Assembly: GCA_937928165.1 (NCBI GenBank)
Contig: CALFVT010000004.1
Span: 124,001 to 188,000, forward strand
Direction: 5' to 3'
DNA length: 64,000 nt
Source: an uncultured Caulobacterales bacterium
Lineage (GTDB): Bacteria > Pseudomonadota > Alphaproteobacteria > Caulobacterales > Maricaulaceae
Shown here piece by piece: positions 5,780 through 55,100 of this stretch. Made by a program: the position numbers and the translations under genes. The notes under the pieces were generated by a model that saw only the letters and a list, made by a program, of their open reading frames with translations, searched no databases and was not told the DNA's origin. Positions within the stretch are counted from its first letter, which is position 1, and each line of letters begins with the position of its first letter.

Positions 5780-6430
5780 TTAATTGTAATTGCGAATTAG
5801 CCCTGCCAGAATGCCTTGGACGGCCACACGGTTCGCATCGAGTACCCGCGTTTCAAAATTACGGTTTTCAGCGATCAGCTCAATTTGAGATCCTGTTTTG
5901 TAAAGACGCTTCAAAGTCGCTTCATCACCATCAACAAGAGCGACAACAATCTGGTTGTTGCGCGCTACATTAGATTTTCGGATAATCACGACATCACCAT
6001 CAAGTATGCCGGCCTCAATCATGGATTCCCCTTCGATTGTTAGCGCGTAATGCTCGCCCGTGCCGATCATGCCCTTTGGTACAGTGATATTACGGCCATC
6101 TTGCTGTATGGCCTCAATCGGAACACCGGCGGCAATTTTACCCACGAGGGGAACGGAGAGACTATCATTCGCGGGCTGGGTTTGCGGGGTGAGCCCATTA
6201 TATGCCGCTTCGATATCTGCCGGAAGCTTTAAAACTTCTAGGGCCCGAGCTTTATTGGGCAGACGGCGGATAAAGCCGCGTTCCTCGAGGGCGGTAATCA
6301 GGCGGTGAATGCCAGATTTGGAGGCCAGTCCTAAATGGTCTTTCATTTCGTCATAGGACGGTGGCACGCCAACCGCTTTGATTCGGTTAGCAATAAGAAG
6401 CAGAAGGTCTTTTTGCTTTTGGGTTAACAT
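5780..6430 (-). CDS. lexA: LexA repressor (SOS regulator)
   Basis: A 216-residue LexA. It has an N-terminal winged helix-turn-helix ([10 protein letters not shown] to about residue 70), a linker and a C-terminal S24 self-cleavage domain. The scissile Ala-Gly is A101-G102 (GKIAAGVP), the catalytic Ser is S136 (GESMIEAG) and the Lys is K174 (DEATLKRL). RecA-stimulated autocleavage would relieve repression of SOS genes. The open frame extends four codons further to an ATG at 6442. The start at 6428-6430 matches the family N-terminus (MLT-KQ) and has GGA eight bases upstream, so it is preferred. A canonical SOS box lies about 40 bases upstream, which implies autoregulation. Confidence 0.96.
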
Positions 6431-6470
6431 GAGCGATTCCATTCGTACAAAACATAAACATTCGTGATTT

Positions 6471-6485: not shown

Positions 6486-6557
6486 TTATCTTTGTCAAGA
6501 GCTGTTCTTTTTTGTGTTCACATTACATATGATGAATACTTCCATTAAAATTTATTC

Positions 6558-6595
6558 TTGACAGTTTTGTAACATTTATTGTAATAAAACTGTCA
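6558..6595 (+). promoter_or_regulatory. Promoter with overlapping 10-bp inverted repeat upstream of TPR gene
   Basis: TTGACA at 6558-6563 is followed after 17-18 bases by GTAATA/TAATAA, a good sigma-70-type pair pointing towards the TPR gene. The same stretch carries the perfect inverted repeat TGACAGTTTT (6559-6568) / AAAACTGTCA (6586-6595). The arms cover the -35 and -10 elements, so a dimeric regulator binding there would block RNA polymerase. The regulator is unknown. Confidence 0.6.
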
Positions 6596-6678
6596 TGAGG
6601 TTAGGCAGCGGTGTGTAAGCCAACGGCGCACGTTTGCAGTCTTTAAATACGTTGGTGATGTTTCATAAGGAGCTCACC

Positions 6679-7287
6679 ATGAAAAAAACAATATATCTTG
6701 CGGCCACAGCCATGACGCTGAGCTGTCTTACAATTACCGCCCCAAGCCATGCGGGCGAGACACTTAATAACGCGATTACGACGTCAGGACTTCCTGTTTA
6801 TGACCGTGAGGCGGTTAAAAACCTGAATCATTGCTTCCAAGCGGATATGGAGCTTGCTAGCAGTAAAGCCATTCGGGCCTGTAGCAAAGCATACCGAAAC
6901 TCAGTCCCTCGTCATGATATTCGCTCTGATATTTTAACCCAGCGTGGTTTATTGCAACTATCTGCCGGACGTTTTAGTAAAGCGAGCCGTGATTTTGAAA
7001 AGTCAGCTAAGCTTAATAATGTCAATGAATTTGCCTATCTTGGCCAAGGCTATAGCGCGATTATGGAGAAAGACTATACCAAAGCTGAAACCCTGTTCAA
7101 AGATTGCATGTCTCACGGCAAGGCTGCACCTTTGGCGGCCTACGGCATGGGGATTGCTCAAGCGTTATCTGGCGACAAGGACGGCGCGATTGCAGCCTTT
7201 CAAAAAGCGGCGCAGTTACGTCCAGATTGGAACGCTCCAAAGTTAGAGTTATCAAAGTTAGAGTTATCAAGGCTTAACAAACACTAA
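6679..7287 (+). CDS. Exported tetratricopeptide-repeat protein
   Basis: The ATG at 6679 is chosen because it has AAGGAG at 6667-6672 and begins a clear Sec signal peptide (MKKTIYLAATAMTLSCL, then cleavage near SHAGE). The longer open frame from 6634 lacks these. The mature part of about 170 residues has TPR-like helical pairs: RGLLQLSAGRFSKASRDFEKSAKL, AYLGQGYSAIMEKDYTKAETLFKDC and AYGMGIAQALSGDKDGAIAAFQKAAQL. It is probably a periplasmic protein-protein adaptor; the specific role is unknown. The C-terminus contains a short duplication, LELSKLELSRL, encoded by a near-perfect tandem repeat. It is a monocistronic unit between a strong promoter with an inverted repeat and a rho-independent terminator. 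Confidence 0.85.
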   Translation: MKKTIYLAATAMTLSCLTITAPSHAGETLNNAITTSGLPVYDREAVKNLNHCFQADMELASSKAIRACSKAYRNSVPRHDIRSDILTQRGLLQLSAGRFSKASRDFEKSAKLNNVNEFAYLGQGYSAIMEKDYTKAETLFKDCMSHGKAAPLAAYGMGIAQALSGDKDGAIAAFQKAAQLRPDWNAPKLELSKLELSRLNKH

Positions 7288-7310
7288 GCTCACTTTACTT
7301 AATGAAATCA

Positions 7311-7339
7311 AAAGCCTTCCCTTTTAGGGAGGCTTTTTT
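7311..7339 (+). terminator. Rho-independent terminator of TPR gene
   Basis: AAAGCCTTCCC (7311-7321) pairs with GGGAGGCTTT (7327-7336) with one bulged T. The loop is TTTTA and a T run follows. It lies 24 bases after the TPR stop codon. Confidence 0.85.
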
Positions 7340-7421: not shown

Positions 7422-7494
7422 CTTATTGTCACAATAAGCTGCCACATGCCGCCTCGAATGCAGTCGAGGTTAGATTTGGATTCGTCCGAATGTC
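7422..7494 (+). promoter_or_regulatory. Palindrome and two hairpins in the leader of the beta-helix lipoprotein gene
   Basis: CTTATTGTCACAATAAG (7422-7438) is a perfect 8-1-8 palindrome and could be an operator. Downstream, CCTCGA (7452-7457) pairs with TCGAGG (7464-7469). A second hairpin at 7474-7491 has a 7-bp stem (one G-U pair) closed by a TTCG tetraloop at 7481-7484. The Shine-Dalgarno GGTGAGG follows at 7514-7520. The whole block could be a structured 5' leader, but no known riboswitch was recognised. Confidence 0.5.
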
Positions 7495-7526: not shown

Positions 7527-10277
7527 ATGTCATATAATGTCAAAAGTTCATTACGGACTTTATTATTAATATCTGTAACAGGCGCATTTCTGACGGCTTG
7601 CGGCGGCGGAGGCGAGGTGGTAACGCCCGGCACAGTGGCGCCCATTATAATTAATCCGCCAAACGGCGGCGGTGCGGCGGCTCCGGCCGATATTGATCTT
7701 GTCCCAAATGATCAATGCCCAACCGGAACGGTCCTTGATACTTTATCCAATAATAACGGTACAATCGAAGCCTGCGTTATAACAGGCACAATTACAGAAA
7801 ACCTCACTTTAACCTCAGAAAATGGTTACGCCCTCAGCGGGCCTGTGTTTATTGGCGAAGACGGCGGACAAAGCGCGGTCTTAGAAATCGAAGCCGGAAC
7901 GCAAATTTTCGGCGGTTCTGGCGCGGATTTCCTCGTCGTTTCGCGCGGCTCACAAATTAATGCACGCGGCGCTGTTGATAATCCTATCATTATGACTGCC
8001 TTTGAAGACATTCAAGGCACGGCAGACGCTTCGTCTCGTGGTCTATGGGGCGGGCTTATCATTAACGGCGCGGCTCCGATCAATGACTGTATTGACGGAA
8101 CAGCGGCTGGTGGGTCTGCGCAATGTGAAAAATCAGGCGAGGGTTCTTCAGGGCTTTTTGGCGGAGATGATCCGAATGACAGCTCTGGTGTTTTACAGTT
8201 TATGCAAGTTCGTTTTGCAGGTAATCTCATTAACGACGAAGATGAGCTTAACGGCATAGCCTTCCAAGGGGTCGGTGCAGGCACTACTTGTGACCATATC
8301 CAAGTTCATAACAACGCCGATGACGGTGTCGAATTTTTTGGCGGCACGGTGCAATGTGACTTTGTCGCCCTGACGGGGATAGCCGATGATAGCCTTGATT
8401 GGACAGATGGCTGGACGGGCGGCTCGCAATTTGTCTTAGTCGTACAGGCGGACGATGCCGGAGATCGCGGCATAGAAGGCGATAACCGCTCGACAAATAA
8501 TGAGCTTACCCCACGTTCAAATCCGACGATTGCGAATTTCACTTTCCTCGGCAGCGCAGGCGGCGATACGGGCGTATTGTTGCGGGCCGGAACGGACGCC
8601 AATATTGTTAATGGTATCGTTACAGGCTTCCAAGATGCGGGACTAGATATTGATGACGGTTCTATTGCCCGCGCACAGGGCGGGACATTGACGTTCGAAT
8701 CATTATTCCTTGATAATAATGACAATATTGAAAGCGGTGATAGCGGCGAAACATTTGATGCGGATGCTTTCGTGACGGCATCTGCTAATATTGTTCAAGG
8801 CAACAATTCGCTTGTTGATGAATTCTTCCCCGGCGCCGCAGAGCAAGCGGTTCCTGCGGCCAATTTGGCCGGACAGCAAGGTTTTGAAAATGTTGATTAT
8901 ATAGGTGCCTTCAGCCCGCAAGAAACAGTCGATAACAACTGGACAACAGGATGGACGTTTGGGATTAACGAAGCGCCAACAGATTGCCCAATGGGGACCG
9001 TTAATTCCGGCGACATTGTTGGCGGTCAAGTAATTTGTACGGTTTCAGGAACCATTACATCAGACATCCGGTTAAATAATAATTTTGTTTATCAATTAAA
9101 CGGCCCAGTTTTTATTGGTGAAGACCAAGGCGGCGATCCTGCGGCCCCTATAGACGGGGCGCAATCTGCGGTCTTAACCATTGATGCGGGGACAACTGTT
9201 TTCGGTGCAACAGGGCAAGATTTTCTCGTCATCGCCAGAGGCTCACAGCTTCGCTCCAACGGAACAGTAACCGCGCCGGTTAATTTCACAAGCCGTGATG
9301 AAGTGTTTGGGACGGCGGATTTTGCAACCGACCGCGGCCTTTGGGGCGGGATTATCATTAATGGCCGCGCGCCGATTAATGACTGTATTGACGCAACGGT
9401 TCCGGGCGGTGATGCAAATTGCGAAAAGTCGGGTGAAGGTTCATCGGGCCTATTTGGCGGAAATGACCCAGCGGATAATTCAGGCAATCTGTTTTTCACC
9501 CGGGTATCTTTTGCAGGTAATCTGATTAACGACGAAGATGAGCTTAACGGCATTGCTTTCCAAGGCGTAGGTAACGGCACGCAAGTTGACTTTATACAGG
9601 TTCATAACAATGCCGATGATGGCGTAGAGTTCTTTGGCGGTACGGTTAATGTCAGCCATGTTCTTCTTACGGGTAACGGGGATGACAGTTTTGACTGGAC
9701 TGATGGTTGGACGGGCAATGCGCAATTTGTGATTATCGATCAATCTGATGACGCGGGTGATCGGGGTATTGAGGGCGATAACCGCTCAACAAATAATACG
9801 GTTCTCCCGCGCTCTAATCCCACAATCTCTAACTTCACATTTGTTGGCGGAGCAGGCGGTGATACAGGACTGTTAGTGCGGGCCGGATCTGCAGGGCGCT
9901 TCCTGAATGGTATTATCACAAATTTCCAAGATGCAGGCATTGATATTGATGATGCGGAATCGGCCAATCAGGTCGCCTCAGGGGATATAGAGTTTAGCTC
10001 CATGCTTGTGGTTGATAATGGTGAGAACCTAGAAACGGACAATGACGAAGGTGACGCTGCCACTGTAAATGCATTTACAAATGGGATGAATAACGTCAGC
10101 AGCGGAACAACCTCTGTCGGGGATATGCAATTCGTACCGGGAGCGGGGGATTCGACGCCTCAGGCGCTTGACCCATCAACGCGCGACCCCTTCTTTGAGC
10201 CCGCCGATTATGTCGGTGCCGTCGAAGACGCCAATGATGATTGGTTCCTCGGGTGGACCTTACTCGTCGATCAATAA
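7527..10277 (+). CDS. Surface lipoprotein with two duplicated beta-helix-like halves
   Basis: The ATG at 7527 is preferred over the longer frame from 7446 because it follows GGTGAGG and begins a lipoprotein signal (MSYNVKSSLRTLLLISVTGAFLTAC, lipobox LTAC). The mature protein of about 890 residues consists of two homologous halves of roughly 420 residues. They start at DQCPTGT (about base 7710) and TDCPMGT (about 8980). Each half has LEIEAGT- or LTIDAGT-type ladders, RGLWGG-IINGRAPINDC, KSGEGSSGLFGG, FAGNLINDEDELNGIAFQGVG, HNNADDGVEFFGGT and DWTDGWTG motifs, suggestive of a right-handed parallel beta-helix rich in Asp and Asn. The adjacent TonB-dependent receptor suggests a partnership in binding or import at the outer membrane. 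The substrate is unknown; metal or carbohydrate binding is speculative. Confidence 0.8.
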   Translation: MSYNVKSSLRTLLLISVTGAFLTACGGGGEVVTPGTVAPIIINPPNGGGAAAPADIDLVPNDQCPTGTVLDTLSNNNGTIEACVITGTITENLTLTSENGYALSGPVFIGEDGGQSAVLEIEAGTQIFGGSGADFLVVSRGSQINARGAVDNPIIMTAFEDIQGTADASSRGLWGGLIINGAAPINDCIDGTAAGGSAQCEKSGEGSSGLFGGDDPNDSSGVLQFMQVRFAGNLINDEDELNGIAFQGVGAGTTCDHIQVHNNADDGVEFFGGTVQCDFVALTGIADDSLDWTDGWTGGSQFVLVVQADDAGDRGIEGDNRSTNNELTPRSNPTIANFTFLGSAGGDTGVLLRAGTDANIVNGIVTGFQDAGLDIDDGSIARAQGGTLTFESLFLDNNDNIESGDSGETFDADAFVTASANIVQGNNSLVDEFFPGAAEQAVPAANLAGQQGFENVDYIGAFSPQETVDNNWTTGWTFGINEAPTDCPMGTVNSGDIVGGQVICTVSGTITSDIRLNNNFVYQLNGPVFIGEDQGGDPAAPIDGAQSAVLTIDAGTTVFGATGQDFLVIARGSQLRSNGTVTAPVNFTSRDEVFGTADFATDRGLWGGIIINGRAPINDCIDATVPGGDANCEKSGEGSSGLFGGNDPADNSGNLFFTRVSFAGNLINDEDELNGIAFQGVGNGTQVDFIQVHNNADDGVEFFGGTVNVSHVLLTGNGDDSFDWTDGWTGNAQFVIIDQSDDAGDRGIEGDNRSTNNTVLPRSNPTISNFTFVGGAGGDTGLLVRAGSAGRFLNGIITNFQDAGIDIDDAESANQVASGDIEFSSMLVVDNGENLETDNDEGDAATVNAFTNGMNNVSSGTTSVGDMQFVPGAGDSTPQALDPSTRDPFFEPADYVGAVEDANDDWFLGWTLLVDQ

Positions 10278-10285
10278 AACAACTA

Positions 10286-10377
10286 ATGGGGCTGAGGTTA
10301 GGGCGCCCCATTTTTAGGATCATTGGCGGGTTTGCCGCCAATGTAGGGCCGGTGATTACTAACCTCATCGCCGGCCC
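10286..10377 (+). ncRNA. Three-hairpin element with complementary outer loops (intergenic RNA structure)
   Basis: Three consecutive stems fill the gap between lipoprotein and receptor genes. Stem 1 is ATGGGGC (10286-10292) with GCCCCAT (10305-10311), followed by TTTT. Stem 2 is CATTGGCGG (10321-10329) with CCGCCAATG (10335-10343), loop GTTTG. Stem 3 is an 11-bp pairing of 10346-10356 with 10367-10377 containing one G-U. The loop of stem 1 contains GAGGTTAG (10294-10301) and the loop of stem 3 contains CTAACCTC (10359-10366), an exact 8-base complement, so a kissing-loop fold is possible. Stem 1 with its T run could act as an attenuating terminator. The function is inferred only. Confidence 0.55.
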
Positions 10378-10407
10378 GCTTTAAAACTTAAACCTTGGGG
10401 TTATACC

Positions 10408-12999
10408 ATGTCAGCATCACGCAATTCATATATTTCATATTTGCTTTTAACCGCGTCTTTCATCGTTTTTCCGGCTATGGCCCAAGACGAAACGAGCACA
10501 GAGCCGCAAGATGAAGTGGTTTCGACGGGGGTTTTTATTCCCAATGAAAAGCGCATCACCTCTGAGATTACGAGTGTTTTGGATGAAGATTTTTTCGAAA
10601 CATCCGGCGCAAGCGATATTGCGTCGGCCCTGACGCGGGTGACGGGCGTATCCCTCAGTCAAGGTAAATTTGTTGTCGTTCGCGGCCTAAATGAGCGTTA
10701 CTCATCGGCCACGCTAAATGGGTCTCCATTACCCTCACCAGAGCCGCTTCGCCGTGTTGCCCCGCTTGATTTATTCCCGACCTCCGTCCTCTCCGATGTT
10801 GTGGTCGCTAAGACAGCGTCTCCTGAAATTTCCGGCGAGTTTGGGGGCGGTGCAATATCGCTTAAAACCAAATCTCTACCCGATGAAAAATTCTTCGAAA
10901 TTTCCCTCTCTACGAGCCTTAACACGGTCTCTAATCTGACAAGCGGCCTGACATATGAAGGCTCAGGCACAGACTTCCTTGGCTTTGACAATGGATTGCG
11001 GGATTTACCGCCCCTTGATGAGAACGGCGTGCCGACAGAAAATTTTGAAAATGATCGCACGCTTTTAATCGAACAAGATAGCTCTTTGCCTCTTAACGGA
11101 AGCGCGCGGATTTCAGCAGGAAACCGCTATGACCTTGACAGCGGTGCGAGTATCGGCGTCTTGGCCACCATTGGCTATAGTAACCAATGGGAGAACCGTG
11201 AGGGGGAGGATAACACTGCCAATATTGGCGCAAATAATAGTCTTGTTATTCTTGATGACGGCTTTCGCCAAAGCACTGAAAATAAGATTGCTCTAAACGG
11301 CCTTTTAGGTGTTGGCGCAGAAATTAATGAAAACCACAACCTACAGCTTGTTGGCCTTGCCACACGGCAAACATCAGCCGAGGCGCGAATTATCTCTGGG
11401 GTTGACCGTGAAGACCGTATCTTCCGTCAGGATTTTACCGAGTTTTTCGAGCGTGAGGTTTACCTAGGGCAACTCCTTGGAGAACATTTTATTCCGTCAC
11501 TGAATGATGCAGAAATTAAATGGCGCGCGACCTATGCCGTTGCGGGCCGTGATGCACCGTTTGAACGCCGCGTGAATTTTGAAGACTTTGAAGACGGGCA
11601 GGGGTTCCGCTTTCAATTCAACCGTCCCGGTACTAATAATGAACTTCGTTTTTCCGAACTAGATGACACAACCATTGATCTAGGCATCGATACAGTTTTC
11701 CCAACAGATATAGGACCGATCCCCGTTGAATTTAAATTTGGCGGTTCTTATCTTGATAAAACCCGAGATAGCCAACAGGCGGATTTCCGCTATTTTGGCT
11801 CTATCCCACAAGAGCTGCAAAATAGCCGTATTGATGTGATCTTCTCTGATGAAGTTTTAAATGCAGGTCTTCTCGAAATTCGCCGCGGCGGCACCACCGG
11901 TTTCCCAGATATATCTGAGGCGGCGCTCAGCGTGTTTTCTGTCTATACAGGACTTGAGGCTGAGCTGAATGAAAACCTGCGTATTGCTTTGGGGCTACGT
12001 TATGAAGACAGTACCCAAGAGACAGCCATTGCACAGGCTCTTGTTGAAGGCAGCGCCTTTGAATTTGATGACCTTGCCGAAGACTTCTTCTTGCCATCAG
12101 CGACGTTAACATGGACATTTGCGGATGGGTTTCAGCTCCGCCTTGCCGCTTCGCGCACAATTAACCGCCCGCAGTTTCGTGAATTAACGCCAACGATTTT
12201 TGTCAATACGGACACAGATGACCGCTTTGTAGGCAACCCGTTCTTACAAAACTCACGTAGTACCAATTTAGATGCCCGTCTTGAATATTACTTTGGCAGT
12301 AGCGAATTTATTACTATTGGCGCGTTTTATAAGGATTTCACAGATCCAATCGAGGAATTTATCTTTAACGGACTTGGGGATTCAAATGCGACCAGCTTTA
12401 TCAATGCGCCCTCTGCGCAATTATTTGGTATTGAAGTTGAATTTGAAAAATCATGGAGCCTAAATGAATTAGGTCTTAGCGGCGGTATTTGGGAGAGCAA
12501 AGATTTAATTTTGCGCAGTAACTATACTTTTACGGATTCTAGCGTGAGTGCAAATGGCGATGTTGCAATTACCCCGCCGACCGTTAACCCATCACAGGCG
12601 ATTACTCCGCTGACTTTATCGGCGGCCGGAATCTACACGGATGGCCGCGCTCTACAAGGGCAATCAGATCACTTGGTGAATTTTCAAATCGGCCTCAATG
12701 ATTATGAAAATAATTGGGAAGCGACGTTTTTACTAAATTACTCATCAGAACGTATTCGCGCTGTTGAGGATTTATCTAACGGCTTGCCATCGATCTTAGA
12801 GCGTTTGCCCATATCTTTAGACTTTGTCGGAAATTATGATTTAGACTTTAAAGGCGGCACATATGAACTTGGTTTTAAAGTCCAAAACATCCTAGGGGAG
12901 GGCTATGAGGCCTCTCAATCTATTGGTGATACAGAAATCATCATCGATAGCTTTGACATCGGCACAACGTTCTCAATTAGTGCAAAACGTAGATTTTAA
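10408..12999 (+). CDS. TonB-dependent outer-membrane receptor
   Basis: An 863-residue protein with a signal peptide (MSASRNSYISYLLLTASFIVFPAMAQ), then a plug domain of about 150 residues including SDIASALTRVTGVSL, VVVRGLNERYSSATLNG and PEISGEFGGGAISLKTK. A long beta-barrel follows, ending in the aromatic strand TFSISAKRRF. TonB-energised receptors import siderophores, vitamins or oligosaccharides. The plug has the QGKFVVVRGLNERY type common in proteobacterial receptors of unknown substrate, and no carboxypeptidase-like N-terminal extension is seen. It follows the beta-helix lipoprotein across a 130-base structured gap, so the two are probably linked in expression and function. The Shine-Dalgarno sequence is weak (GGGG near 10397). 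Confidence 0.9.
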   Translation: MSASRNSYISYLLLTASFIVFPAMAQDETSTEPQDEVVSTGVFIPNEKRITSEITSVLDEDFFETSGASDIASALTRVTGVSLSQGKFVVVRGLNERYSSATLNGSPLPSPEPLRRVAPLDLFPTSVLSDVVVAKTASPEISGEFGGGAISLKTKSLPDEKFFEISLSTSLNTVSNLTSGLTYEGSGTDFLGFDNGLRDLPPLDENGVPTENFENDRTLLIEQDSSLPLNGSARISAGNRYDLDSGASIGVLATIGYSNQWENREGEDNTANIGANNSLVILDDGFRQSTENKIALNGLLGVGAEINENHNLQLVGLATRQTSAEARIISGVDREDRIFRQDFTEFFEREVYLGQLLGEHFIPSLNDAEIKWRATYAVAGRDAPFERRVNFEDFEDGQGFRFQFNRPGTNNELRFSELDDTTIDLGIDTVFPTDIGPIPVEFKFGGSYLDKTRDSQQADFRYFGSIPQELQNSRIDVIFSDEVLNAGLLEIRRGGTTGFPDISEAALSVFSVYTGLEAELNENLRIALGLRYEDSTQETAIAQALVEGSAFEFDDLAEDFFLPSATLTWTFADGFQLRLAASRTINRPQFRELTPTIFVNTDTDDRFVGNPFLQNSRSTNLDARLEYYFGSSEFITIGAFYKDFTDPIEEFIFNGLGDSNATSFINAPSAQLFGIEVEFEKSWSLNELGLSGGIWESKDLILRSNYTFTDSSVSANGDVAITPPTVNPSQAITPLTLSAAGIYTDGRALQGQSDHLVNFQIGLNDYENNWEATFLLNYSSERIRAVEDLSNGLPSILERLPISLDFVGNYDLDFKGGTYELGFKVQNILGEGYEASQSIGDTEIIIDSFDIGTTFSISAKRRF

Positions 13000-13333: not shown

Positions 13334-16300
13334 TTAGAAGCCGATACGAAGGCGTAGATATCCAGCAGAAGCTGTGTAGCCGGAGGCAAAGTCCCCTTCA
13401 TAACCAATTCCGAAGGACGCGCCGCTTGCACTAACAATATCGAGGTCTGCACCGATTTCAAAGCGCGATTCTAGGGCATCACCTGAGGTTAAAACAAATG
13501 GTACTGCGCCAGGTAATGTAATGCTTTGATCGCGTGAATCACCTGTGAAGTCATAAATATAATCTGCACGTAAACTTGGACGAATAGCCCACCCATTAGT
13601 TTCAACACGCGGCGCGAATCTTGCGCCGATAACGCCCTCAAAGAAATCCGTTGTATCGGCATTAACAATCAGTCCAAGACCGCCTGTTTCAGTAAAAGAT
13701 TCCTCTGAAATAGAGCCGTAACGGAACCCCGCATGCGGCGTAAAGTCAAAACTTCCGGAGCCAGCTTTATAGCCAATAAGGCCGCGAGCCGTAAAGCCTG
13801 AGACATCAAATTCACCGTTTACATCACCTAAAGCAGATGTTCGCTCTGTTTCTGCATCGCCAAAAATATAACCAATTTGGCCGGTGAAAAATGTTTTCCC
13901 GATGTCATATTGACTATAAGCTGCGATTTGGAACGTATCCAGCTCTGTTTCACGCTCTGTTGCCACGTCATTCTCAATCTCGATATTGGAGAAACTACCA
14001 GCGACGCCAAGGCGAAGCTCATTGCTCACCTGTGTGTCAAAACCAAGGGAGAAACTTGTTGCATCGGCGTCATAACCGGTCACACTTACGTTCTCATCAT
14101 CACGATCGGCTGTGCGGAATTGAGCTTGCGCCCAAGCACCGATTTGTGTGCCGGCCTGTAAACGGTCGGCAATGAAGTTATTTGCAAGGCTATTGGTTTC
14201 CCAAACTTCGCGCGAAACCCCTTCATTGAGTGTTGGCAGGAGATCACCAGCAACGGTATCAAAGCTGGTTCCAGTCGGTAGATTATTAAGCGCATTTGCA
14301 TTGGCTTGACTTAATTGACCAGCTGTAAATGCGGCTGTGATAGCGGAGCCAAAGACCGAGAAATTCGGATCATTTGTTTGTGCGCCAAGATCTACTGCAT
14401 CAGCAATGACAGATACAGCCCCGGCAAGATTGACACGGTAATCCACAAGGAAATCATTATCCGTAACATTTACCTGAACACCATTATCGGTGAAGGTTCC
14501 AGTCTCTGTTATAACAAAAACTTCTTGGCCGAGTGTAAGGTTGTTAATATCACCAGAGTCGATATTGACAACACTACTTGACCCAAGAACTGTGCTGCCA
14601 TCAACGGCAAGTAGGTCTTGTCCAAGACTCAAATTTAGTGTTCCGTTTAATGTAAAGTCACCTTGTAGATTGCGCGTGCCATTTACTGACGCAATGGTGC
14701 CGCTTGCAATCGTTGTTGTAACATTATTTAGGATATCCGCCCCTAGCGCAAAACTTGGGCCGCTGATGTTAAGTATATCCGTAAAGTTAGAGCCGATGAA
14801 ATCACTTTGGAAACCGCCGCCAATTTGGTTGAAATTCACCGCGCCTTGAGCCGTGGAAGCATCAAGCACAGAGGTACCTGTAAGTATTCCGCTGTTTTGG
14901 ATCGTACCTGTGAAATCAACATTATCAATTAAGATGGCTGCGCCCGTTTCAGAGGCAATCGTCCCTGAATTAGTGATAGCTGCATCGACATTTACATTTG
15001 CAGCACCGGCAAAAATACGAAGCCCAGCAGGAACTTGATCTGTTCCGCGGCCTTGGATTGTGCCAGCATTGTTAATTGTGAAGGAAACGGTTTCGCCGTC
15101 TACATTGCCTGATTGTAAAGATACACCTGATCCGCTATTTCCGGCTCCGGCGTCAATTACGCCTGCTGCGGCGTTGTTGAGCGTATATGAATTTGCCGTC
15201 GCGTCTGCATAAACTGTTCCATTCCGTTGGTTTCCAAGGCCTAAAATAGAACCTGTATTATTTATAGTTAGGCCAAGCCCATCAATGTTAAGGGCGCGGC
15301 TCCCGGATGAAATAATTCCGGAATTGTTCACAACGGCATTGGTGAAATCACCGCCGCCTGCATCCGTTGCATTGCCAAAATATAGACCGTTTTGGGTGCC
15401 TGTAATCGTGCCAAAATTGTCGATTGTACCCGATAGACTGATGCCATTTACGATCCGAAGGCCGGCAGTCGTGCCGATGGCGCTTTCGGAGGCGATTGTG
15501 CCAGAGTTTGTGATCGCGGCTGTGGCTAATCCTGAATTTCCAACATTGCCAATGCGGAAACCATCACCTGCGGCGCCCGTTGCAGCGCTGCCCTGCCCGC
15601 GTCCTTGGAGTGTGCCGGAATTATCGAATGTGAAGCTGGTTCCATTTGGGCCAACTTCAGCCGCAAAAGCAGAGCCTTCGTTACCTGCGCCCGCATCGAT
15701 TGTGCCGGAGTTATTGACAGTATAATCTGTGGCCGTTCCGTCAGAATAAAGCGTACCGTTCCGTTGATTGCCTGTGCCGAGGATGCTGCCAGCATTGTTT
15801 AATGTAAGGCCAATACCGTCGATATTAAAGGCACGGCTATCAGAGCTGATAACGCCTGTGGCCGTATTGGTGAACACGCCGTTCGAATGATCAGCCCCTT
15901 GGCCCATCACTGGATTACCAAAGTAAACACCATTACGAACGCCGGAAATCGTGCCGGAATTATCAATCGTTCCCGCAAAGCTTATGCCGTTGACAAAGCG
16001 AAGACCCGCTGTTGTGCCTTGATTGCTTTCGGAATTAATCGTACCAGAGTTTGTGATGTCGACGGTCGCTGTGCCGATGTTACCGGGATTGCCAACACGG
16101 AAACCATCTGCATTATCTACATCACCACGTCCTTGTATGACGCCTAAATTGACTAATTCAAATGTGTTTCCATCGAGGTCAATTTCAGCTGCAAAGCCTG
16201 ACCCTTCGATTACAGCGTCGATAGTGCCAAAGTTGTTGATGGTATAATCTGTAGCTGTTGCGTCCGCATATAATGTGCCGTTACGCTGTACGCCTGTGCC

Positions 16301-17230
16301 GAGAATATCCCCACCATTTGTTAATGTCAGCCCTGTGCCGTCGATATTAAAAGCGCGACTATTAGAGGAAATTGTTCCGGCATTAACAACTGTGCCACCT
16401 GTATGATCAGCATCACCGAAATATACGCCGTTCTGAGCACTAGAAATAACGCCGCCGCTCTCATTCGTTAATGTCCCTTGGAAACCAATTCGGTTCGCAA
16501 ATCGTAAACCCGCAACCGTGCCTTGAGTGCTTTCAGATGTGATTGTGCCTGAGTTTGTTATATCACCATTAAACACATAGGCAGGAAGAAAACCAGGGCC
16601 AAAAAAGCGAATGCCATCACCCGCAGTTCCGCCAGTGGCTAAGCCTTGCCCGCGTCCATTAATAATCCCTGTATTTGTTATAGATCCGCCAACCGGATTA
16701 CCCATATTGCCGATTTCAAGCGCTATACCTGCGCCGTCATTGCCAAGACCTGCATCAATTAATGCCCCATCATTATTGTTAATTACGAAACCTTGAGCCG
16801 TTAAATTTGCGTAAACTGTGCCATTTCGTTGATCGCCAGTTCCGCGAATAATACCATTATTTTCAAGTGTAAAATTATCGCCCTGAATATTTACAGCGCG
16901 TGAGTCGCCTTCAATAATCCCGCTTGCTGTGTTTGTTAGCATTGTGTCTGTTGTATCGGCATTAACTTGAACAGTTTGCGAGCCGCCCGTTGTGGTCAGC
17001 GTTCCGTTATTCGTCACTTCAACATTATTATTTGCGATTGTAATAACGGGTGCAGCAATGGCTATGTTTGTGCCGTCAAGCGTAATCATTTCACCGTCAG
17101 TCATTGATGTTATAGACTGAGCAATGACCTGCGGGGCGGCAAGCATAAGGGCTACAGCCGCAGTTGATGACGTTAATGTTATTTTTGCAAAACTAGATGG
17201 TTTTGCATGTTGTCTCTTTTTAATAGTCAT
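13334..17230 (-). CDS. Autotransporter with repetitive passenger (type V secretion)
   Basis: ATG at 17228-17230 is chosen because AGGAGAG lies just upstream and a long autotransporter-type signal peptide follows (MTIKKRQHAK to about VIAQS). The product is about 1298 residues. The passenger is Gly/Asn/Thr-rich with NSGTI and GTGNQRNGT motifs. It contains four tandem units of about 175 residues, each beginning SRA(V/F/L)NI, starting near bases 16903, 16362, 15844 and 15304. A linker with NNLPTGTSFDTVAGDLLP leads to a C-terminal autotransporter barrel of about 270 residues that ends in RLRIGF, with the terminal Phe needed for Bam insertion. The likely role is surface display for adhesion or matrix. 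No protease or lipase active site was seen. Confidence 0.9.
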   Translation of the reverse strand: MTIKKRQHAKPSSFAKITLTSSTAAVALMLAAPQVIAQSITSMTDGEMITLDGTNIAIAAPVITIANNNVEVTNNGTLTTTGGSQTVQVNADTTDTMLTNTASGIIEGDSRAVNIQGDNFTLENNGIIRGTGDQRNGTVYANLTAQGFVINNNDGALIDAGLGNDGAGIALEIGNMGNPVGGSITNTGIINGRGQGLATGGTAGDGIRFFGPGFLPAYVFNGDITNSGTITSESTQGTVAGLRFANRIGFQGTLTNESGGVISSAQNGVYFGDADHTGGTVVNAGTISSNSRAFNIDGTGLTLTNGGDILGTGVQRNGTLYADATATDYTINNFGTIDAVIEGSGFAAEIDLDGNTFELVNLGVIQGRGDVDNADGFRVGNPGNIGTATVDITNSGTINSESNQGTTAGLRFVNGISFAGTIDNSGTISGVRNGVYFGNPVMGQGADHSNGVFTNTATGVISSDSRAFNIDGIGLTLNNAGSILGTGNQRNGTLYSDGTATDYTVNNSGTIDAGAGNEGSAFAAEVGPNGTSFTFDNSGTLQGRGQGSAATGAAGDGFRIGNVGNSGLATAAITNSGTIASESAIGTTAGLRIVNGISLSGTIDNFGTITGTQNGLYFGNATDAGGGDFTNAVVNNSGIISSGSRALNIDGLGLTINNTGSILGLGNQRNGTVYADATANSYTLNNAAAGVIDAGAGNSGSGVSLQSGNVDGETVSFTINNAGTIQGRGTDQVPAGLRIFAGAANVNVDAAITNSGTIASETGAAILIDNVDFTGTIQNSGILTGTSVLDASTAQGAVNFNQIGGGFQSDFIGSNFTDILNISGPSFALGADILNNVTTTIASGTIASVNGTRNLQGDFTLNGTLNLSLGQDLLAVDGSTVLGSSSVVNIDSGDINNLTLGQEVFVITETGTFTDNGVQVNVTDNDFLVDYRVNLAGAVSVIADAVDLGAQTNDPNFSVFGSAITAAFTAGQLSQANANALNNLPTGTSFDTVAGDLLPTLNEGVSREVWETNSLANNFIADRLQAGTQIGAWAQAQFRTADRDDENVSVTGYDADATSFSLGFDTQVSNELRLGVAGSFSNIEIENDVATERETELDTFQIAAYSQYDIGKTFFTGQIGYIFGDAETERTSALGDVNGEFDVSGFTARGLIGYKAGSGSFDFTPHAGFRYGSISEESFTETGGLGLIVNADTTDFFEGVIGARFAPRVETNGWAIRPSLRADYIYDFTGDSRDQSITLPGAVPFVLTSGDALESRFEIGADLDIVSASGASFGIGYEGDFASGYTASAGYLRLRIGF

Positions 17231-17378
17231 TATTCTCTCTCCTAGAGTTGAGCAATATTCCGTAAAACACAGTTGTCGGCGACGCCTCAAAGCCTGTGTT
17301 ACTGCTCAGTCGTATTGAGATTCAAAAGAGTTCAAATTTTTTATGAGTTTATATGATTTAGGGTAATATAGCGCAGAT

Positions 17379-52131: not shown

Positions 52132-55100
52132 TTATAATGTGCCGCCGCTGGAAATTACGAGCGACTTAGTTTCGGAAATGGCTCGCTCCCCGGGGCGGTA
52201 CATATCCTCAACAACCGCGCCGGGGAAAGTAAAGCTGCCATTGCTAACGGCGCGCACAATATAGGCAGCGGTATAGCTATCCTTGCGTTGGGTATCACCA
52301 GAGGCAATAAATCGGTCATCTCTGGCTTCGCTCATGTCAAAAGCGCTGATCTCTCCCGCCCAAGAGAAAGCGCCGTCCGCAGCATTATCTTGCTTACCAT
52401 CCGCAGGCTCTAAGATTTGCTCAATTTCAAACCCAGCGGGAAGCATGTCCGCAAGCACAATGGTGCGGCTTCGGTTTTGTTTGGACGCAAAGTTAAGTTT
52501 AACCACATAACGCTCGCCTCGCCGTACGCCTTCTGTGGCCATCTCTTCACCTTTAAGGTCGTGCAAGGATTTTGTAAGCGTTAAGCCCTCATTGACAGGG
52601 GGCGGTACCGAGGCCGGCGCGCCGCTGGCTAAGGCTCTAATAACGATGCGGTCTTCGCCTTGGTTACTTATGGTCACACCATTTGCAATATCGCGGCCCA
52701 AGATATAGGCGCTGGCATGGGATAAAACACCGTCTGCTTTTTGCTCACTAAAGACCGCCCCCGACGCTCTATATTTTATACCCCTATCACCCCCTGATTG
52801 CGCCCGTAAGGCTAATATGATTTGCCCAAGTTCTTGTGTCCGCAGGCGGTTTGGCATTTCGATGTCATTCACCAAGCGGGCTTCGAGGTCATCGCGGCGG
52901 CTCTCATTTGATATCACACCAATGATAGCGGCTAAATCACGGAGCGGCGTTTGGTAATAATTATTTTCGTCGACATAGCCCAAGGTTTTGATAGCGAGCT
53001 CATAAGCCGCCTGCGCCCGCTCATCATCTCCCAAGAGCGTAAAAGTTTCTGACAGGAACCCAAAGCTTAGAGGTGATTTGATACGGGATTTAAAACTATC
53101 AAATATGTAGCGGGCTTGCCCTAAACGCCCCTGTCCATCACGGGCCATGACATATCCTGCATAGCTTGCGGCATCGACTTTACGCATTTGCAAATTCGAC
53201 TGCGCATTATAATGATTAACATTTGCGCGATAATCGAGTTTTTGGCTAGATTCTAATTGATTTAAAACTTTAAGAGCCAAGCGTGTGCGCTTTAACACAT
53301 CCGCGTCCACATCATATCCGGCGTCATCGGCCCGTAGAATAAAGTCCGACGCATAAACCCCAAGCCAGAGAGAGGCTAAACCATCCCCTTCCCGCCATAA
53401 GCCAAAACTCCCGTTTTCGCTTTGTCTTAATGCGAGTTTATTAATCGCATTTTGCATTTTTCGGTCATAATTACGCAGGCTTGGTTGAATGTCTGCCCCA
53501 AAATCACGCGCATATAATAAGGGCAAGGCAGCCGATACAGTTTGTTCCGTACAGCCATAAGGATAACGCCGCAGAGCCGCAATATAAGGTGATGGATCAA
53601 TTAACCGCCCATTAGTAACGGATAAAGTCACGTCAATACTTCCGGGAATAAGGCCTACGACAAACTCAGGTGGCAGGGTTAAGCTCTCACCTGGGGTAAT
53701 GACCCACTGTTCCGCCTGAGATATTGGCAAAAAAGGTGAGCGGGTTTGAAGCTCGGCGCTGCCGGATATATTATATCCCCCGGGGCCAGAAAACTCATAA
53801 TTTATATCGGCAACTCCTAAAGATTTTGCTTCAAGGCTAAGGGATTGATCGCTGCGTATATTGCGCGGCAAGTCAAAGCTTAGGTTTTGAGACTCTAAGG
53901 CTAAGCCGTCAGCACTGTTGACTTTAAAGCCGTAAGCTCCTTCTGCGCCGTTAAGATTATTCGCTGAAACGACCGCATCGATACGGTCCCCCGGCGCGAG
54001 AAATCGCGGCAAAGCAAGCTCTACGGGGACGGGATCGCGCAGGGTCAAAGCCATAGAGGCACTCCCAACGGCTGTTTCTGACCATGCGCTCGCCATAAGG
54101 CGAAGCTCTCCGTTATAATCTGGAATATCGAGCGGAATAACGGCACTGCCATTTTCCATTTTAACATAGCCTTTAAATAGCGCTATGGTTTTTTGCGGAA
54201 TAACTGTCAAGCCTTCACCGCCAATACCGTCACCGCCGGAGCGAGCAATAACCGCCGTGCCGAGGTTAGGGTTTAAGATACGGCCATAGTCATCATATAT
54301 AGAGGTCATTAGTGCCGTCTTTGCATGAAAAAATGTCTCTGCAGCCGGGCTTTTATATTTCGTGATTTGCAATATCCCTTCATCAACAGCGGCCAGATTG
54401 ACCCAAACAGGGCCTTTGGGTACCCGTCCATTTTGAAGCGCATTAATTACAACATTAAAGCGCTGCCTTGGCTTAATTTTAGCCTCATTTTTGAACGAAA
54501 GCTGCAGGGTTGTTGGTGCAGTATCGCGGCGAAGATAAGCTGTCCCCACTGCGCGGCGCGGTATAGGTAAAGTCTCAGCATCACGTGGGGTGTATAGGCT
54601 TATCAGGGCATAAATGCCTACGCCCCATGAGGCATCATAAGTCAGATCAATTTCTGACTGTCCTTCAGAGAGCTGAATGGGCCGTGATATAAACACCTCT
54701 CCATTGGTGAGGATAAGATCGGCCTCCCCGTCATAAGGCGATGTTACAGACAGGGTAAAGCGTGCGCCGGGTTTTATACCGTCATTCGGCGCGGTAAGTT
54801 GCAGAGCATCAGGTTTGTCGGATTTGTTTTTCTGCCCCCATCCGACAGCAAATTCATAGCTATTTATCTCGCGATCTTCATCTTTTAAAGCAAGGCGGTA
54901 ATCCCCTCGCGGTAAAGCCCTCTCCCAAATTGCAGGCCCGTTACCCTCCAGCGACAAGACACCGTTATCAAGAGGCTGCTCGCGTAAATCACGGCGATAG
55001 CGCCACCGTCCATTTTCTTTATACCATTGGTAATCCCAGTCTTGCTCCATGAGTGTCCATTCTAGCTCGCCACCAGTTTGCAAGCCGGCTTTATCAACGA

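Follow-up and report, generated by a model that had tools for sequence, protein, structure and literature searches.

A two-hairpin element in an outer-membrane uptake cluster of Caulobacterales carries a loop that co-varies with the predicted start of a neighbouring mRNA

Introduction

Three strong hairpins lie between a putative lipoprotein gene and a TonB-dependent receptor gene in the window (the whole 64-kb stretch of DNA that was analysed, from an uncultured Caulobacterales bacterium), and the question raised by this locus is which partner, if any, their loops recognise. The initial annotation paired the loops of the two outer hairpins with each other as a kissing loop. Relatives of the window were compared for the stems, for the loops and for complementary sites in the same gene cluster. 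Where an RNA loop and its presumed mRNA target have undergone compensatory changes in nature, evolution gives direct evidence that the two RNAs touch, and methods of target prediction need such cases for testing. If the interpretation favoured below is true, recognition of mRNA starts by a terminator-like loop is one of the ways in which marine Caulobacterales control an outer-membrane uptake cluster.

Results

The gap between the two genes contains the following features:

10285-10292/10305-10312, + strand: hairpin 1 (H1), 12-nt loop holding a further GAGGTTAG, in this genome only
10321-10329/10335-10343, + strand: hairpin 2 (H2), arms CATTGGCGG and CCGCCAATG, variable stem with compensatory changes
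10346-10356/10367-10377, + strand: hairpin 3 (H3), 11-bp stem and 10-nt loop, terminator-like
10359-10366, + strand: putative seed CTAACCTC in the H3 loop (loop sequence CUAACCUC)

The three stems and the exact complementarity of the outer loops (GAGGTTAG at 10294-10301 in H1, CTAACCTC at 10359-10366 in H3) were confirmed as first annotated; in the window the complementarity spans 9 nt (TGAGGTTAG/CTAACCTCA) and a T run lies 3' of H1. The stretch 10270-10400 (131 nt) folded better than its shuffled versions on the + strand (z -3.24, 1/200 shuffles equally good) and on the - strand (z -4.18, 0/200). The minimum-energy structure predicted for the 131-nt + strand contained H2 and H3 and lacked H1; H1 was present when the 71-nt segment that starts at the lipoprotein stop codon and reaches to H3 was folded, and on the - strand. 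The T runs after H3 were clear in the genomes G036 (TTTTTTT), G088, G095 and G100, and short or broken in the window and several others. A consensus scan for terminators (12 sites in the region, shuffle mean 7.6) took loops of 3-8 nt only, and H3, with its 10-nt loop, was outside its reach. At the gathering score, Rfam returned two tRNAs only from the window and no family for the element, and relaxed Rfam searches with the gap and both upstream leaders gave weak matches only, under the gathering scores of the families.

The motif GAGGTTAG/CTAACCTC was counted five times in the 64-kb window (shuffle mean 0.98; 0/100 shuffles reached 5). Beyond the H1 and H3 loops, two of the three remaining copies were found in the 5' leaders of two upstream genes of the same cluster. 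The features of the cluster and the last copy of the motif are:

6558-6587, + strand: promoter-like TTGACA (6558-6563) and TAATAA (6582-6587), spacer 18 nt, read from the sequence
6594-6678, + strand: conserved TPR leader (model R1, see below), with a 3'-end hairpin that holds the ribosome-binding site
6597-6604, + strand: GAGGTTAG at the start of the TPR leader, conserved predicted partner of the H3 loop
6679-7287, + strand: TPR-repeat protein gene, signal-peptide-like start (by eye)
7310-7337, + strand: terminator-like hairpin between the TPR and lipoprotein genes (consensus scan)
7466-7473, + strand: GAGGTTAG in the leader of the lipoprotein gene, candidate second pairing site (motif count and genome comparison)
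7527-10277, + strand: putative lipoprotein gene (label by eye)
10408-12999, + strand: TonB-dependent receptor gene
54262-54269: last copy of GAGGTTAG/CTAACCTC (window motif count)

The product of the putative lipoprotein gene had no match in Pfam or NCBIfam. Because of the promoter-like boxes at 6558-6587, the octamer at 6597-6604 would lie near the expected transcription start.

Of 61 genomes, 42 had a match to the receptor, counting the genome of the window itself. The regions upstream of 30 receptor loci were inspected by eye as unfolded sequence, and most gaps held one unrelated GC-rich hairpin. The two closest relatives (G026 and G036, 71% receptor identity) had a two-hairpin element resembling H2+H3 with CTAACC in the second loop, and this was noticed ahead of any search using the loop sequence. 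The first copies were then gathered with a loop pattern including CTAACC, which matched 30 of the 137 family genomes with similar control counts; a real element was recognised at the pattern sites of 10 of these 30 genomes.

Both stems covary. Across the 10 genomes, 95.3% of the H2+H3 cells were paired and 7/17 pairs had changes on both sides; on four of the five measures 0/500 shuffles did as well, and on the fifth 12/500. For H2 (helix 1) in these genomes, 4/6 pairs were changed on both sides and 86.7% of cells were paired. The H3 stem, aligned from 12 genomes (11 distinct rows), had all cells paired and 7/11 pairs changed on both sides, while the core of its loop was an invariant CTAACC and the motif was placed exactly within the 10-nt loop in 12/12 genomes.

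Two models were used for wider searches: R1 was built from nine TPR leaders and R2 from ten hairpin pairs (H2+H3), with G007 and G100 outside both training sets. In the 137 family genomes, R2 gave 12 matches at E 1e-10 or better and five weak ones (5/17, E 0.006-0.044), and R1 gave 13 matches, i.e. the 12 of R2 and G067, which has the octamer in both leaders and whose contig ends before the site of the element. Among 348 genomes sampled from the whole order, the two models matched the same eight; these co-matches are biased because both models contain the motif, and linkage explains part of the co-occurrence because element and leader belong to one cluster. The weak R2 matches in G023, G029, G061 and G089 were rejected as copies of the element, being without CTAACC. 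A mobile repeat was also rejected: the window's genome has one full copy and each matched genome one R2 match.

The fifth weak R2 match, in G145, was left out of the counts of carriers, having a broken stem and no R1 match. Its lipoprotein/receptor gap (locus L176, about 9320-9385) holds a decayed copy in which the loop CTAACCTC is kept; no TPR gene stands directly before the lipoprotein gene, and the lipoprotein leader holds GGGGTTAA. In G024, the TPR-lipoprotein-receptor cluster is present and neither R1 nor R2 finds the RNA part. The gap there (L227, 7925-8070) has two strong hairpins of other sequence, with no CTAACC loop and no matching leader. As for a replacement pairing in G024, none of the 40 complements listed out of 74 lay just before the TPR or lipoprotein gene; the 8- and 9-mer complements of this gap, which overlap in the list, exceed a uniform-base estimate.

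The order TPR, lipoprotein, element, receptor was found on one strand in 9/12 genomes. In G091 and G007, the element is located 3' of the receptor gene and closes the same gene run. In G011, the only receptor remnant beside the element is a 51-aa tail (58.8% identity), downstream on the same strand, and both the element and the TPR octamer are intact. The TPR gene of G011 is separated from the element by a lipoprotein/receptor pair of another type, encoded on the opposite strand (L076, 1-9500).

The H3 loop could pair through eight of its bases with the octamer of the TPR leader in 12/12 element-carrying genomes. This octamer is situated at the predicted 5' end of the TPR-gene mRNA, 3.7-6.4 kb upstream of the element, and TTGAC preceded it at promoter distance in 10/12 genomes by pattern and in G088 by eye, not in G137. 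Loop and octamer varied together: nine genomes combine the loop CTAACCTC with the octamer GAGGTTAG (in G088 the octamer is GAGGTTGG, which gives a G-U pair), the two genomes of genus g11 combine CTAACCCC with GGGGTTAG, and G007 combines CTAACCTT with AAGGTTAG. In the alignment of this contact (12 genomes, 11 distinct rows), 88/88 cells paired and 2/8 pairs were doubly changed; the double changes correspond to about two evolutionary events, and the twelve genomes are therefore not independent tests. One of 500 shuffles reached the pairing percentage, the doubly changed cell count and the covariation score, 14/500 reached the doubly changed pair count, and 500/500 reached the number of pair types. 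When the contact was slid by three columns, the covariation score was 0.141 (0.150 unshifted), though 37.5% of cells then paired.

A matching octamer was also present in the lipoprotein leader of 8/12 genomes (G000, G036, G088, G093, G099, G100, G137 and G026) and absent in G095, G091 and G007 among the 12 carriers; in both g11 genomes the lipoprotein leader again holds GGGGTTAG. The predicted energies of the loop:leader duplexes were -8.2 to -12.3 kcal/mol. The predicted contact falls close to the 5' end of the TPR mRNA and well away from the ribosome site, which has its own hairpin. A ribosome-site switch in the TPR leader was not supported: forcing the octamer to be unpaired changed the predicted openness of the site by at most 0.02 (13 leaders, nested folds).

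A wide regulon was not supported by genome-wide counts. There was no excess of GAGGTTAG in G000 (39 sites, reversed control 44) or G036 (53 sites, control 83). The 39 sites of G000 comprised three in the window, one at C24:258 and 35 that were inspected; most of the 35 were inside long stop-to-stop frames, and five were located 10-17 nt before a start codon, positions usual for ordinary ribosome-binding sites. A scan of the 12 genomes for TTGAC...RRGGTTAG recovered the TPR promoter recurrently (10/12) with totals not above the control.

Discussion

The stems of H2 and H3 covary, and the H3 loop co-varies with the predicted TPR start. This joint evolutionary change of loop and leader octamer points to an apparently undescribed regulatory RNA, and we estimate a probability of roughly 65% that H2+H3 is a small base-pairing RNA element, with an H3 loop that binds the TPR mRNA, and often the lipoprotein mRNA as well, at its start.

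The kissing of H1 with H3, in which H1 would be a switchable terminator setting the lipoprotein:receptor ratio, drew on the 9-nt complementarity of the loops in the window and on the T run that follows H1. The proposal did not survive the comparison as a conserved function: a complement before H2 occurs only in the window, i.e. in 1/9 element-carrying lipoprotein/receptor gaps, and the minimum-energy structure of the 131-nt + strand has no H1. The annotation had named stems kept without loop complementarity as the outcome that would count against it, and many homologous gaps do keep a hairpin upstream of H2, with 8/9 lacking the loop complement (the position of H1 is taken by other hairpins or none). 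Nor can a general role in the lipoprotein:receptor ratio hold, because two genomes, G091 and G007, carry the element beyond the receptor gene. This model is very improbable, although in the window's genome a kissing contact may form; what stands of the annotation, and is well supported, is that the RNA is structured and its H3 loop competent to pair, while the H1 loop as its conserved partner falls. It is equally hard to credit a reading of H3 as just another terminator or mRNA-stabilising hairpin, with its loop conserved by descent and its match to the leader due to chance. Many gaps of relatives in the order do have a single GC-rich hairpin, unrelated by eye (30 loci), and T-rich sequence lies 3' of H3 in several genomes, but an ordinary terminator does not account for compensated stem changes around an unchanged loop core, or for loop variants that track the leader variants.

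A cis-acting contact is unlikely. Here there would be no free small RNA: the H3 loop would pair with the 5' start of its own mRNA (that of the lipoprotein gene, or one that reads through from the TPR gene into it), and the looping would alter stability or translation. Such a contact would suit the collinear TPR, lipoprotein, element and receptor in 9/12 genomes, the closing of the gene run by the element in G091 and G007, and the octamer in eight lipoprotein leaders. Against it, the partner found in 12/12 genomes is the TPR start, and in the window a terminator-like hairpin stands between this and the lipoprotein gene; moreover, the pairing is intact in G011 despite the opposite-strand genes between the TPR gene and the element. 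The octamer might instead act as DNA, GAGGTTAG being a protein-binding site in both leaders that is repeated in reverse in the gap, with the complementarity of the loop as a by-product. The octamer is indeed near the promoter, the operators of one evolving protein would also change together, and Pho-box-like repeats mark these promoters as regulated regions. However, an operator needs no stem, whereas the motif is placed exactly in the 10-nt loop in 12/12 genomes with the stem kept by compensation, and the only leader variant unmatched in the loop (GAGGTTGG of G088) still gives a G-U pair; we consider this explanation decidedly improbable.

A base-pairing RNA acting in trans is preferred because the partner found in 12/12 genomes is predicted on another transcript (beyond the terminator-like hairpin at 7310-7337), and because of the arrangement in G011. 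We infer that such an RNA is produced, acts in trans and is terminated at H3. The lipoprotein mRNA would usually supply the element from its 3' end. H3 would double as terminator or 3'-end hairpin, with CUAACCUC in its loop serving as seed. The TPR transcript would begin within a few nt of GAGGUUAG, and the loop would pair with the octamer at this start and, in most carriers, with that of the lipoprotein leader. Since the loop can pair with both leaders, a product of the cluster would feed back on the first two genes of the cluster. Covering of the 5' end could either protect the TPR mRNA or mark the target for decay or repression. The sequence TGAGGTTAGG of the TPR start recurs in an H1 loop in the window's genome alone, and it may be speculated that H1 is a built-in decoy gained by the window's lineage. 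Tentatively, and at somewhat less than even odds, the whole could be a dedicated lock-and-key circuit. A single hairpin loop, placed 3' in an uptake operon, would then read the opening nucleotides of two mRNAs of the cluster, each with a promoter of its own, and would evolve together with them. The circuit would persist where transport genes beside it have been lost (G011), and the window's lineage would have acquired a decoy hairpin that copies the target start.

No account of this element came up when the open-licence literature was searched for small RNAs of these genera or for such an arrangement. FasX of Streptococcus pyogenes is a small RNA whose pairing with the extreme 5' end of an mRNA stabilises that message. 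The predicted contact of the H3 loop is likewise at an mRNA 5' end; FasX comes from a different phylum.

OppZ and CarZ of Vibrio cholerae are autoregulatory small RNAs from operon 3' ends (PMC7398697). Like these products of a transport and a biosynthesis operon, H2+H3 has a 3' position in its operon and is predicted to pair with leaders of its own locus (for CarZ, the 5' UTR of the first gene; PMC7398697). A 3'-end position was found after the lipoprotein gene in 9/12 genomes and after the receptor gene in 2/12, and complementarity to an own-locus leader with compensatory change was found at 12/12 TPR starts, with two positions doubly changed. Unlike OppZ and CarZ, H2+H3 is predicted to pair through the loop of a terminator-like hairpin, near the mRNA start and not the translation start, and would have two target leaders with separate predicted promoters (PMC7398697). 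ChvR of Caulobacter crescentus, from the same order, is reported as specific to C. crescentus and as repressing the receptor mRNA chvT at two sites (PMC6237742). There too, stem-loop regions pair with a leader and a TonB-dependent receptor is involved; unlike ChvR, the H3 loop does not have its partner in the receptor leader (PMC6237742). CrfA and SisA-D of C. crescentus (alphaR8 family) have a single-stranded core UUUCCUCCCU of anti-Shine-Dalgarno character (PMC12559287). Shared with these RNAs are a pyrimidine-rich seed facing a G/A-rich partner and the sponging of one RNA by another, as H1 might do, whereas the seed of H3 is a hairpin loop, CUAACC(U/C)(U/C) (PMC12559287).

Less firmly than for the pairing, the context suggests that the uptake cluster perhaps answers to phosphate and that the RNA perhaps acts under phosphate starvation. 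Pho-box-like repeats were scored with a consensus and with P from mononucleotide shuffles: 12/13 TPR promoters and 6/9 lipoprotein promoters had repeats at P 0.01 or better, and those that did not reach this level were the TPR promoter of G137 and the lipoprotein promoters of G000, G137 and G026. The repeats are variable in position and strand and overlap the promoter boxes; in the window, direct repeats at 6545-6600 that resemble Pho boxes overlap the TPR promoter. Genes for a PhoU-domain protein and a response regulator are located just upstream in G137, and the lipoprotein/receptor pair of G145 adjoins PhoU-domain, phosphate-binding-like and histidine-kinase genes.

The TPR leader is strongly conserved past the octamer (6594-6681), with a hairpin presenting CCAACG, a later matching CGTTGG and the hairpin of the ribosome-binding site, and it may be a second structured regulatory leader. 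By eye, the window also encodes a LexA-type repressor-like protein (5780-6442, - strand) and a large autotransporter-like protein (13334-17290, - strand).
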